From a virus, in IMG/VR virus record IMGVR_UViG_3300000236_000001, positions 1 to 26,877 of that record: a DNA stretch of 26,877 nt. One strand, given 5' to 3'. The notes under the pieces are model-generated. The model was not told the origin of the DNA and did not search any database. It saw only the letters and a program-made list of their open reading frames with translations. Of this stretch, positions 3,818 through 26,877 are shown piece after piece (position 1 is the stretch's first letter; every line of letters begins with the position of its first letter). A program made the translations under genes and the position numbers.

Positions 3818-6800
3818 CAGGTCCACCTTCCTGTAGCAACATAACTTATCCTTGCGGACATCCCATTGTTAGGCCCAATAGCATAAAGCTGCGCCCCAGA
3901 CGAGCCCATTGGAGCATACCCACCCCAAACGATGCCAGTGGTATAGTTGTCAGGGGCGGAAACAGCCAGTACATAATTAGTTGTAAAAGCCACAGGAAAC
4001 GAAACGGCGGCGCTTCCGTAATAGGCCGACCCACCGCCCGAGCTTATGGATATTTGTCCTGTCACGCCCCAGCATATTTGCGTGCCATTATAAAAACGCA
4101 CCCAGTCAAGCCCTGAAGAGTGGACCCCCATACCCTTTGTGTCTACATCATTTACAAAGAACTCTGCCGGGCCACGAAGGTATAAATTGGTTTTTCCAAC
4201 AACACTAGCCGTCCTGCTTACACTGTCCGCGTCCCTGATTTGAAAATGCCACGCATGAGTGCCTGTTATGTACGGGCTATCATCTCGCAACCCAAACATT
4301 AGCATATTTCGTTGGTGAAACTCATCATGTGTTCGTATGGCTACTGCTGTGTTTGGCCAGTCATCATATTCAGAACCGTTACTATTAAACTTGTCTACCC
4401 TTAGTTTTACAAACTCAGGATTGCTCTTTCTTCCCAGCGCCTTCTGGATTACCGTTCCGTCCCCGAATGTCAGGTCTGTACCATCATTGGAGACAATCCC
4501 CGCGCCGACAGTAGGCACAAGCCCGTTGCTCAGCGTTATGCTCCCCGAGTTTTTGGCATACAGCACCCCATTGCTCGCCTTGACGTACTCATCCCCCGTT
4601 CCATCCTTGATGGACAGGCCGTACATCGAACCCTGGATGATCGTCCAGTAATCCCCGGTGATATGGTTCGCGACGCCCTGGAAAGCGACGGTGATGTCAA
4701 GATCGATGGCAACCTGCGCATACGCCGCGATGACCCCGTGTGCTACTGGCGCACCTGGCCCTGACCCGGTGTCGGCGGTGTGTTGCCAGCGCCGTGTCTC
4801 GGTGTTTGAGCGGATCGCGCGTGAGCAATAAGGAGGGAGGAAGATTTCAAGCGAATAACCTTGGCTCTGAGGGAAATACAACCTCTCATTGACGTATGCC
4901 GCAGTTCTGCGGTCCATAGAATGTGGCATTGTTATAGTAGTGAACGTTCCGTTTGCTATGTCGAAGATTTCAAGCAAGGTGCCGCCATTCTCCGGGAAAT
5001 ACAACCTCCCATTAACGTGTACCATAATACTGCGATACATCGAGTGTGGCATTGTTATGGTCGTAAACGTTCCGCTTGCTATGTCGAAGATTTCAAGCGA
5101 ATAACCTTGGCTCTGAGGAAAATACAACTTCCCATTGACGTGTACCATGGCCCAACGATACATCGAGTGTGGCATTGTTACAGTAGCATTAAACAGGCCG
5201 CTTGCAATGTCAAAGATTTCAAGACGATTATCATTGCTCTGTGGAAAGTATAGTTTCCCGTCGACGTGCGCCATGGTGTAGTAGTCCGCCGAACTCGGCA
5301 TTGTTACAGTAGCGTCAAACAGGCCGCTTGCTATATCGAAGATTTCGAGCGAGGTACCCCCGTACTGAGGAAGGTATAGCTTCCCGTTGACGTGTGCCAT
5401 GGTCCAACGGTATGCCGAGTGAGGTATTATTAAAGTAGTGTCAAATGTTCCACTTGCTATGTCGAAGATTTCAAGCAAATCGCCATTGTGCTGAGGAAAA
5501 TACAACTTCCCATCGACATGCTCCATGGCATTGCGAAGTATCGGATTCGGCATTGTTATGGTCGTAAACGTTCCGTTTGCTATGTCAAAAATTTCAAGAT
5601 AAGTACCACCGCTCCTAGGAAAATACAGCTTCCCATTGACATGCGCCATGGTCATGCGGTACATCGAATGAGGCATTGTTATGGTAGCGCTGAACTGGTT
5701 ACGCGCTTTTTCTTTCAGAGACTCGGCACCCGTCTCCATATCAATGACATAAGCATCGGCGCCTGATTCTTCCGACGTCCAATATAACATTTCACTCAAT
5801 CCCATCGCCGCCCGCAACGCCTCGGTTGAACCGAAGGCGGTACGGAGCGAGGTGAGTTGCGTTCGCGTCGGCAGTACCCAATCTGTCATGCCGCCGAGCG
5901 TCGATGCCGCCGCCGCTGCTACCGCATTATCCCACCCGGAGACCTCAAGATCAGAATTGGCAGCCTCAAGATTTGTCGGAAAAATCTTTCCGCCCGAAGG
6001 CCCGATGTCCCCGGTCTGCGCGTCCGTGATTGTGGCAATAATGGTGCCAGCAACCACTCCGTCTTCCACTACTGCAAGATCGTTGTTCCCGTCTCCGGTG
6101 AATCCTTTGGATTGGATGCCGGTCTGATCCTTTATCCCGACACGACAGTTTTCCTCCGCACCAGCTCCGGTCTTGAGCGTGCCAAGGATGGATACTTCCT
6201 GCGCCGCGAGCGACCCGATAAAAGCGCTTGATGCCGCTATCGACCCGAACACTCCATTTGCCGCCACGATAAGCCCCGAGTCTCCGCCCGTCGGGTTGTC
6301 CACAACCCATGGTTGTATGTCCGGCATTGCCGTATTCATGGCGTTGGCGTATCCAGACATGGAGCTTGTGTAGGTAATCCATCCACTGCCCGTGTAGTAC
6401 TGAAGAAATCCGCCGCCCAGCGCGACAGTGTTTTTATCAAAGTAGTAGTCCCCGGCAATCAATTCACCCGAAGGTGCAGACAGAAGCGAACCCCAATATA
6501 TCGCGGCTGTGGATGGGTCTGCAGACACCGCGCAGTTTTTCTGCGCTATCATCGTGACCAGTCCACCAGAGGCATACATCGAGATTTTTATGGCGGCAAC
6601 AAAAAGCGTATCCAAGCCAACTACCATTGCTACCGGTACGTGGTATGTATGGCTCGCCTCATCAATATCGCCTATATAATCGTCAACGTAATCAACTCCA
6701 TTGTGCGAGATCGCAATCACAAACCTGCCGGCATACGCATTCATATTCTGGTTGTATCCATATACCACCAGGTCTTGAGGGCTCAATTCTCCGAGTCGGT

Positions 6801-8819: not shown

Positions 8820-8848
8820 ATTATCGCATAAAGGTGGAAAATTTTCCA
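8820..8848 (-). promoter_or_regulatory. Candidate promoter of tail-tip gene built on palindrome
   Basis: On the minus strand TGGAAA (8848-8843, inside the palindrome) is followed after exactly 17 bp by GATAAT (8825-8820). The predicted start near 8813 leaves an 8-nt leader containing GGGGG before the ATG at 8805. The -35 is a poor match to sigma70, so an activator or repressor could act through the palindrome. The same spacing recurs at 15648-15676. Confidence 0.45.
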
Positions 8849-25679: not shown

Positions 25680-25708
25680 TTGACGCAGTGCTTGCGGCGT
25701 GCTATATT
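25680..25708 (+). promoter_or_regulatory. Rightward promoter P1
   Basis: TTGACG (25680-25685), 17-bp spacer, TATATT (25703-25708); close to the sigma70 consensus. Predicted start near 25715. TTGAC at the -35 and GTCAA at 25716-25720 form a wide inverted pair around the promoter. It reads toward the three small plus-strand genes. Confidence 0.6.
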
Positions 25709-25817: not shown

Positions 25818-25836
25818 TACCACGTGGTGGTATAAT
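25818..25836 (+). promoter_or_regulatory. Rightward promoter P2, extended -10
   Basis: TATAAT at 25831-25836 preceded by TGG gives an extended -10, so the lack of a good -35 is acceptable. Just upstream TACCAC (25818-25823) and GTGGTA (25827-25832) form an inverted repeat that overlaps the -10, a possible regulator site. Predicted start near 25843. Confidence 0.6.
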
Positions 25837-25840
25837 ACTT

Positions 25841-25860
25841 AAGTGAACAATTGTTCACTT
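25841..25860. promoter_or_regulatory. Perfect 20-bp palindromic operator at P2 start
   Basis: AAGTGAACAATTGTTCACTT is perfectly symmetric and covers the predicted transcription start of P2, 4 bp after the -10. A dimeric helix-turn-helix repressor bound here would block initiation. It also contains TTG 25851, an alternative but unlikely start for the first small gene. Confidence 0.7.
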
Positions 25861-25877
25861 CATTAAGGGAGGCGCCC

Positions 25878-26177
25878 ATGTTAAGCGCCAGTGTTGTAGT
25901 TGATATGTTCGACGCCTATGAGGATGCCGACATTATCGAAGCGATAATGGAAGATGTTGTTACTTGTACTAGCACAGGCAGCAAGGGTTCCAATTTCAGG
26001 GTAATTAAGGGCTACCTTGACGCGCTTGACGCGGTTGAACGCGGACACTGGCCTGATGCCGGTGAACCGCGTTCTTTCAAGTCACGTAGCTGGCTCGTAC
26101 GGCCATACTTGTCTGAGGGCTTGCGCCGTCGGTACACCGACATGGCGCGCGCCGAGAAGCTGGAAGGGCTTATATGA
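25878..26177 (+). CDS. Small hypothetical protein, first gene of rightward operon
   Basis: A 99-aa protein. I choose ATG 25878 because GGGAGG lies 6 nt upstream; a TTG at 25851 is in frame but lies inside the operator palindrome. The product begins MLSASVVVDMFDAYEDADI and contains an acidic first third, then NFRVIKGYLDALDAVERGHW, and a basic end (SEGLRRRYTDMARAEKLEGL). It has no membrane segment and no motif I recognise. The gene contains three hairpin-forming inverted repeats of its own: CATTATCG/CGATAATG at 25931-25949, GAACGCGG/CCGCGTTC at 26037-26074, and GTCGGT/ACCGAC at 26128-26141. Likely an early phage protein under P1/P2. Function unknown. Confidence 0.65.
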   Translation: MLSASVVVDMFDAYEDADIIEAIMEDVVTCTSTGSKGSNFRVIKGYLDALDAVERGHWPDAGEPRSFKSRSWLVRPYLSEGLRRRYTDMARAEKLEGLI

Positions 26178-26480
26178 TATATAAGGTCTATGACAGCAGC
26201 GGCGACATAGTGGACACTGTGGAGTGTACACTATCGCTTGACAGCACGGCCATGATAGTCGGCCGTGCCCGATACCCGGTAGACCTATTTCAGGAAGTCT
26301 ACCATATCGGTGAGAGTGTCCATAAACCGTATAGGTTTTGGACACTCAATATCGACCATATCCTTGCCGCGGAGATAGCGGCAGGATATGTAGCATATAG
26401 TATGCAATCCACAGAATATGACGGATTGCATACATACGAACTATAATTTTGTCGGCGCGGCGCGGAACTTCCGCGCCGAC
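26169..26480 (+). repeat. Array of eight consecutive inverted repeats with mostly 9-10-nt linkers
   Basis: Hairpins at 26169-26185, 26207-26234, 26244-26268, 26278-26303, 26314-26347, 26357-26390, 26400-26433 and 26451-26480. Stems are 7-14 bp; two carry one bulged T and one a single G-A mismatch. From the second to the seventh hairpin the linkers are 9, 9, 10, 9 and 9 nt. All but the last lie within or overlap the 90-aa frame, and the first encloses its start codon. Confidence 0.8.
26174..26446 (+). CDS. Small hypothetical protein overlaid by hairpin array
   Basis: A 90-aa frame from ATG 26174, in a 4-nt ATGA overlap with the preceding gene. The product starts MIYKVYDSSGDIVDTVECT and has alternating hydrophobic and polar residues, a helix-like DHILAAEIAAGYVAYSMQS, and an acidic/aromatic end. 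There is no membrane segment and no motif I know. The start codon lies in the hairpin CTTATAT/ATATAAG, and six further stem-loops cover almost the whole coding length. The overlap argues for coupled translation; the hairpins could also mean that the RNA or DNA structure is the selected product. Both readings remain possible. Confidence 0.55.
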   Translation: MIYKVYDSSGDIVDTVECTLSLDSTAMIVGRARYPVDLFQEVYHIGESVHKPYRFWTLNIDHILAAEIAAGYVAYSMQSTEYDGLHTYEL

Positions 26481-26520
26481 AGGGTTATAGAACTAGCGCG
26501 TATAGTGCAAGGGGAGTTGT

Positions 26521-26721
26521 ATGAGAAAGAACCTGAGGAAAAGAATCGCGGAGGCATCATGGTACATAGAATGCACCAAATCGGCCTTCCGCCAGGTGTT
26601 CATTGCCCGGCGGTTCCCGCCTATGGCGTTCGAAGATGATCCATTGCCGGGGCACTATACGGCGCCGCGGACCTGGGCAACGTTCAAGCGTATACGCGAT
26701 GATATGCTAGACTGGCAATAA
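26521..26721 (+). CDS. Small basic hypothetical protein, last gene of rightward operon
   Basis: A 66-aa protein from ATG 26521, with AGGGGAG 5 nt upstream. The first 30 residues are basic and helical (MRKNLRKRIAEASWYIECTK), then RQVFIARRFPPMAFEDD and a final helix WATFKRIRDDMLDWQ. Net positive, so nucleic-acid binding is possible but unproven. A competing frame at 26418-26639 has no ribosome site and starts inside a hairpin, so I reject it. Weaker inverted repeats occur inside this gene (26560-26578, 26609-26621, and the palindrome GCGTATACGC at 26688-26697). Confidence 0.6.
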   Translation: MRKNLRKRIAEASWYIECTKSAFRQVFIARRFPPMAFEDDPLPGHYTAPRTWATFKRIRDDMLDWQ

Positions 26722-26752: not shown

Positions 26753-26808
26753 GGGGGCGTATGTTTAGAACGGTGCCGTACAGCGTAACGGCATGGCGAT
26801 ATGAAGCG

Positions 26809-26840
26809 ATACCCGGCAAGTGAGCCGGGTATTTTTTTTT
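26809..26840 (+). terminator. Strong intrinsic terminator of rightward operon
   Basis: Perfect 9-bp stem ATACCCGGC (26809-26817) with GCCGGGTAT (26824-26832), a 6-nt loop, and nine consecutive T from 26832 to 26840. Confidence 0.92.
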
Positions 26841-26877
26841 CCTACCAGCCACCAGCCTACCAGCCTACCAGCCAGCC
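26841..26877. repeat. Short tandem CCTACCAGC repeats at window end
   Basis: The last 37 bases consist of three CCTACCAGC units mixed with CCACCAGC and CCAGCC remnants. No coding potential is visible. It may continue beyond the window. Confidence 0.7.

Follow-up and report, generated by a model that had tools for sequence, protein, structure and literature searches.

RNA viruses and RNA phages generally have structured coding RNA, with selected local pairing (for an overview, see PMC6563262). The locus described here is comparable to such RNA in being a coding sequence with apparently selected local pairing, but it belongs to a DNA phage, is limited to one gene and consists of a row of simple local hairpins. 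The closest precedent that we found is the coding palindromes of Nematomorpha mitochondria, perfect inverted repeats that lie in functional genes, are gained and lost between species, and are possibly kept by template switching (PMC6649704). In both systems the inverted repeats are perfect, lie within functional genes and have arms that are unrelated from one repeat to the next, both arms being coding, and both systems show gain and loss (PMC6649704). However, the nematomorph palindromes reach up to 284 bp and occur in many organelle genes, whereas those described here measure 7-20 bp and are arranged in tandem in one gene of a dsDNA phage. The palindromic elements of Rickettsia (as described in PMC6649704) also lie inside reading frames, but they are copies of one mobile repeat, whereas here every arm differs. 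Template switching is a documented maker of perfect RNA hairpins (PMC8794818) and acts on coding inverted repeats of yeast (PMC8604942). These hairpins and repeats share with our locus the Watson-Crick-perfect stems, and their mechanism is able to produce such stems in a single event, but neither a genome-wide excess nor the recorded base-pair asymmetry is seen here.

A search of the phage literature in open-licence papers found no similar array. In Geobacillus phage GBK2 (L017, 13135-13397), six perfect hairpins of 7-8 bp with different arms lie mostly within the beginning of a gene for a minor structural protein; this stretch was rejected as a similar array, its P of 3e-4 for the gene start corresponding to about chance as the best of many windows. 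In Lysinibacillus phage vB_LspM-01 (L019), an unannotated stretch (28051-28489) holds eight or nine 7-9 bp hairpins and, behind them, an apparent tRNA T-arm (fold of 28100-28560, z -4.4).

Genomic context and coding status of gene 2

The window, i.e., the whole stretch of 26,877 nucleotides analysed, extends from base 1 to base 26877 of a virus record 45,355 bases long. Judged by its gene content, the virus is a tailed phage: the - strand carries the genes for terminase, portal and the major head and tail proteins, and the + strand, further to the right, carries small genes and genes of replication type. The hairpin array sits in the first + strand operon, composed of a promoter-like site, three small genes and a terminator (Table 1). 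The operon is predicted to be early and, because the promoter-like site lies upstream and the terminator downstream, the array is predicted to be contained in a single + strand transcript. Downstream of the promoter-like site and ahead of gene 1, a near-perfect palindrome (AAGTGAACAATTGTTCACTT, 25836-25865) likely represents a repressor site.

Table 1. Position and properties of the operon elements and of the eight hairpins (window coordinates).
Feature	Position	Strand	Remarks
Promoter-like site	25680..25708	+	TTGACG-17-TATATT, TG before the second hexamer (extended -10); 10/12 consensus matches, consensus match only
Gene 1	25878..26177	+	99 aa; 31% / 33% identity to L003 / L005
Gene 2	26174..26446	+	90 aa; carries the hairpin array; start overlaps gene 1 stop (ATGA); 44% identity to L003 protein
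Hairpin 1	26169..26185	+	7 bp; spans gene 2 start codon
Hairpin 2	26202..26237	+	4+5+5 bp; 2-nt bulge and one mismatch
Hairpin 3	26244..26268	+	8 bp; single array stem largely kept in relatives (7/8, 6/8 pairs)
Hairpin 4	26269..26310	+	6+7 bp; outer CCGATA/TATCGG, inner GGTAGAC/GTCTACC
Hairpin 5	26314..26347	+	9+5 bp; one bulged T
Hairpin 6	26357..26390	+	8+5 bp; one bulged T
Hairpin 7	26400..26433	+	11 bp; perfect
Hairpin 8	26441..26490	+	20 pairs; starts in last gene 2 codons, extends beyond stop
Gene 3	26521..26721	+	66 aa; ORF
Terminator	26808..26840	+	Intrinsic, predicted; closes operon

No PHROGs or Pfam family matched genes 1-3, a tblastn search against phages and plasmids gave nothing credible, and protein searches of phage, plasmid and genome collections returned no relatives. 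Scans of viral contigs yielded just two relatives, L003 and L005, both of which carry the locus beside terS, with a terS-like gene, gene 1 and gene 2 in the same order as in the window. The start-stop overlap of genes 1 and 2 is kept in all three sequences, and the L003 protein is the nearest relative of the gene 2 protein. Structure prediction, with two or three sequences, reached a mean pLDDT of 55 and 48, too poor for a fold search. Since the divergence of gene 2 between L003 and L005 is mainly synonymous (31 codons differ synonymously, 13 non-synonymously), gene 2 is, on the sequence comparison, a real coding gene, the second of the presumed early operon. In L005, two extra A in an A run (4139-4155) put gene 2 out of frame as compared to L003; this 2-base insertion is either a real frameshift or lesion, or a sequencing error.

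The original prediction, which was made from the window alone, allowed for a structured element coexisting with a reading frame or for a frame that is merely incidental. The former stands, as the frame encodes a protein that is conserved in the relatives, and the latter had to be abandoned in view of the identity to L003 and of the mainly synonymous differences between L003 and L005. A noncoding structured RNA, acting as a protein sponge or in packaging with an incidental frame, might still be suggested by the strength of the structure (z -10.5, see below) and by the absence of any matching known protein family, but the frame conserved in two relatives, the gene 1 overlap kept in all three sequences and the lack of an Rfam match all speak against it; such an RNA appears largely refuted by the conserved frame, and we consider it very improbable. 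Rfam returned just matches to miRNA models and to rnk_pseudo below gathering scores, none of them on 26169-26490. With no match at gathering score a known RNA family was rejected, and with none near that score either the element may rightly be termed undescribed.

The hairpins and their statistical support

All eight inverted repeats that had been predicted are present with the predicted arms and coordinates, except that hairpin 8 had been given too short (Table 1). A comparison of the arm sequences confirmed that all of them differ, so that structure is present without shared sequence, and the shared unit sequence that characterizes a repeat family (REP, CRISPR-like, or mobile palindrome) is lacking. 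The array had also been described as near-periodic, with linkers of 9, 9, 10, 9 and 9 nt. The arithmetic is right for the arms as originally drawn, and a count based on composition puts the chance of the 9-nt linkers at ~2e-5, a value calculated post hoc, after the linkers had been seen. The even spacing is not robust, however, because two stems extend into linkers in the minimum-energy fold, hairpin 2 through GCGA/TCGC (26202-26237, p 0.75) and hairpin 4 through CCGATA/TATCGG (26269-26310, p 0.95). Once these flanking helices are counted the regular spacing vanishes, the linkers between hairpins 2 and 8 in the best fold being 6, 0, 3, 9, 9 and 7 nt.

The + strand RNA of positions 26150-26500 folds at -163.7 kcal/mol, compared to -102.3 +/- 5.8 in dinucleotide shuffles (z = -10.5). 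Because the stretch is coding, the permutation of synonymous codons, in which the protein and the codon usage stay fixed, is the fairer control; with it, gene 2 folds at -114.3 compared to -76.9 +/- 5.6 (z = -6.7), none of 200 permuted sequences being as stable, and with codons drawn from the phage's own usage z is -5.1. The two kinds of control proposed or suited for this stretch, shuffles and codon permutations, thus both fold less well than the real sequence, and the claim that the repeats exceed chance is upheld. The codon controls gave far milder values for the neighbouring genes (gene 1, z -2.4; gene 3, z -1.7). Among perfect hairpins with arms of 7 or longer and loops of 3-20, gene 2 contains five that do not overlap and that add up to 43 bp; this stem total was reached in none of 40,000 codon permutations, and five hairpins were reached in one. 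In a fold scan across the 45-kb record, the segments starting at 26201 and 26251 rank top. The array is real, statistically extreme and local to gene 2.

In 26 kb of other coding sequence of this phage, 23 stems were seen against 22.9 expected by permutation. Because the other genes match the expectation, the excess belongs to one gene rather than to the genome at large, and a genome-wide palindrome tendency was rejected. This bears on the origin of the hairpins, since they might be functionless coding palindromes generated by template switching during replication (quasipalindrome correction) and tolerated by a flexible small protein: such a process would need a local hotspot confined to one 273-nt gene. 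The spread over many genes that is seen in the nematomorph type was likewise not found, there being no excess elsewhere. That type also calls for perfect inverted repeats beyond chance, given the protein, in a conserved and expressed frame; the excess and the conserved frame are present here.

Comparison with the two relatives

Both relatives fold significantly better than their dinucleotide shuffles (z -4.7 in L003, -4.3 in L005); for the whole of gene 2 in L003, the codon control gave a weak z of -1.7. Their hairpins are located in the first third of gene 2; both share CGACATACTC/GAGTATGTCG, and L003 also has ATACCATCAAGTG/CACTTGATGGTAT. By permutation, the L003 arms of 10 and 13 bp have a P of 7e-4 (longest arm) and 0.009 (total), and the gene 2 hairpins of L005 a P of 0.012. 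When the stems of the window are projected on L003 and L005, most helices keep 0-5 of their 7-9 pairs, and positions are thus gained and lost between relatives, as in the nematomorph type. The original prediction had named homologues that lose the pairing while keeping the protein as evidence against a structured element; the window's own stems are indeed mostly lost, but other significant hairpins occur in the same gene. Hairpins in gene 2 are common to all three sequences; the array itself is not, and its stems turn over.

Covariation could be judged across three sequences only, the helices of the window being mostly absent in the relatives and the relatives' stem displaying one two-sided change. 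This change, from A-T to G-C on both sides, is found in the second stem of L005 as compared to L003; in the same stem of L005, two A-T pairs have become A.C on the + strand. Between L003 and L005, the longest series of codons without a change (13 codons, P 0.01) lies across the junction of genes 1 and 2; within codons 1-16 of gene 2, the two sequences differ only by two synonymous codon changes, both in the loop of their first hairpin, the stem being unchanged. As hairpin 8 does in the window, a GC-rich hairpin follows gene 2 in the relatives; 11 of its 13 pairs are kept in both, with changes inside. After gene 2, a conserved frame of ~30 codons (...GAGNTAPCTMQARYTLNRSRIKRVK, read by eye) is present in L003 (2067-1980, - strand) and L005 (4280-4370); it overlaps the GC-rich hairpin in both and possibly encodes a small protein.

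Pair types and strand symmetry

Hairpins 1-7 contain no G-U pair in 80 bp (P ~5e-4), compared to a G-U share of ~9-10% in shuffled or random synonymous sequences, even among the most stable of these; in hairpin 8, + strand G-U pairs are present in the outer part. For gene 2, folding of the - strand is as favourable as that of the + strand (-118.3 vs -114.3). A structured mRNA should tolerate G-U pairs on the transcribed strand and fold better as + than as - strand, and neither is seen in hairpins 1-7. The strand symmetry and the absence of G-U fit an action at the DNA level or an origin by template switching as well as they fit RNA, and because of them our confidence in a role of the mRNA is kept low. 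In the comparison with L003, the stem codons are less conserved as amino acids than those elsewhere in the gene (19/53, 36%, vs 21/37, 57%; P 0.056), as if the pairing had bent the protein, or as if the hairpins had settled in its looser parts.

Purely Watson-Crick stems are what template switching predicts (PMC8794818), and the equal folding of both strands, the lower conservation of the stem codons and the positional turnover, which resembles that of the nematomorph coding palindromes (PMC6649704), point in the same direction. In addition to the confined hotspot that it needs, however, this origin has to accommodate the compensatory change in the L003/L005 pair and stem 5' bases without G/U bias (35/80, by eye), unlike the asymmetry reported for intrastrand switching, and we regard it as doubtful.

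Perfect, strand-symmetric stems would also be expected of a DNA-level cis element: phage DNA that is single-stranded or supercoiled would extrude hairpins or cruciforms, and these would serve in replication, packaging or recombination, close to terS and to a possible origin. The array lies ~0.75 kb from the start of the terS-like gene, just before an AT-rich, repeat-bearing non-coding stretch, and L003 has DnaA-box-like words and hairpins in the same place. Yet arms and loops are without a common motif, the positions are not kept in the relatives, and the G-U pairs of hairpin 8 exist solely in the + strand RNA; the origin role of the AT-rich stretch and the use of the array as DNA are themselves putative. 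Such an element seems unlikely to us.

Possible function of the array

We favour, with a probability of roughly 0.42, the explanation that gene 2 carries a locally selected coding hairpin array that most likely acts in the mRNA, through stability or translation. A local constraint is favoured because the effect is local, the coding control was passed, and hairpins recur in gene 2 of the relatives. The two-sided A-T to G-C change, the unchanged codons across the junction of genes 1 and 2 and the G-U pairs of hairpin 8 also speak for this explanation; the poor retention of the array's own stems in L003 and L005, the two A.C changes and the strand symmetry speak against it. The sequence of gene 2 would be under a second, local constraint, under which it folds into seven to eight strong local hairpins in a row and which would act on the mRNA transcribed from the first early operon. 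The transcript would fold while being made, and the hairpins might alter the expression of gene 2 (and of genes 1 to 3 together) by changing how stable the mRNA is or how fast it is translated. As the individual stems are replaced from relative to relative and hairpins nevertheless remain, selection would act on the state of being hairpinned and not on one fold recognized by a ligand. We tentatively suggest that selection keeps this hairpinned state, the codons being tuned so that nearly the whole message forms a row of hairpins of one helical turn each. A role in decay or translation of the mRNA is our plainest guess.

Neither start-codon occlusion nor translational coupling was retained as the specific mechanism: the start codon of gene 2 lies in hairpin 1, but opening of the gene 2 ribosome-binding site costs 11.2 kcal/mol here and 6.5 in the relatives, no outlier among the 3-16 of other genes. 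A CsrA-type sponge was also rejected, since the eight GGA words in 322 nt are, by eye, not regularly located in loops. The roles originally proposed (titration of a protein, packaging, and protection from nucleases) received no direct support.

If the array is selected, 273 nt of a DNA phage hold two codes at once, and the structure has been maintained through the replacement of every stem, a kind of structure to which ordinary covariation tests would be blind; coding DNA might then hold nucleic-acid information that is missed by searches for conserved structures limited to intergenic regions. If it is mutational, the nematomorph coding palindromes would have a counterpart in a bacterial virus, and template switching could be tested on a compact system.

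Other elements of the phage genome

A palindrome with the core TGGAAAATTTTCCA is present in 14 copies in the 45-kb phage, many of them in intergenic gaps, with 0 expected in the window by shuffling. The copies are located at 8835, 8897, 15663, 25483 and 25523 of the window and between 1275 and 18178 of L002 (9 copies), and the core also occurs in L003 and L005. Most copies read GGTGGAAAATTTTCCACC in this phage and in L003, and TTATGGAAAATTTTCCATAA in L005; because the palindrome flanks changed together, the set appears operator-like, with lineage-specific arms.

The non-coding stretch at record positions 26840-27570 (L002 840-1570) is AT-rich (40% GC) and has tandem repeats. It comprises a CCTACCAGCCAG repeat, in which assembly gaps lie, recurring GGTTAC words, the hairpin word CGGCGCTATCGC twice and the TGGAAAATTTTCCA-core palindrome three times, and is a possible replication origin. 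The DnaA-box-like words of L003 (1850-1920) occupy the equivalent position. Finally, two adjacent genes at L002 4322-5505 have related C-terminal stretches (WRLPSKEELNAMY...YWSSS...VRLV) and differ most in one short, aromatic-rich segment; their products are possibly diversified surface proteins.
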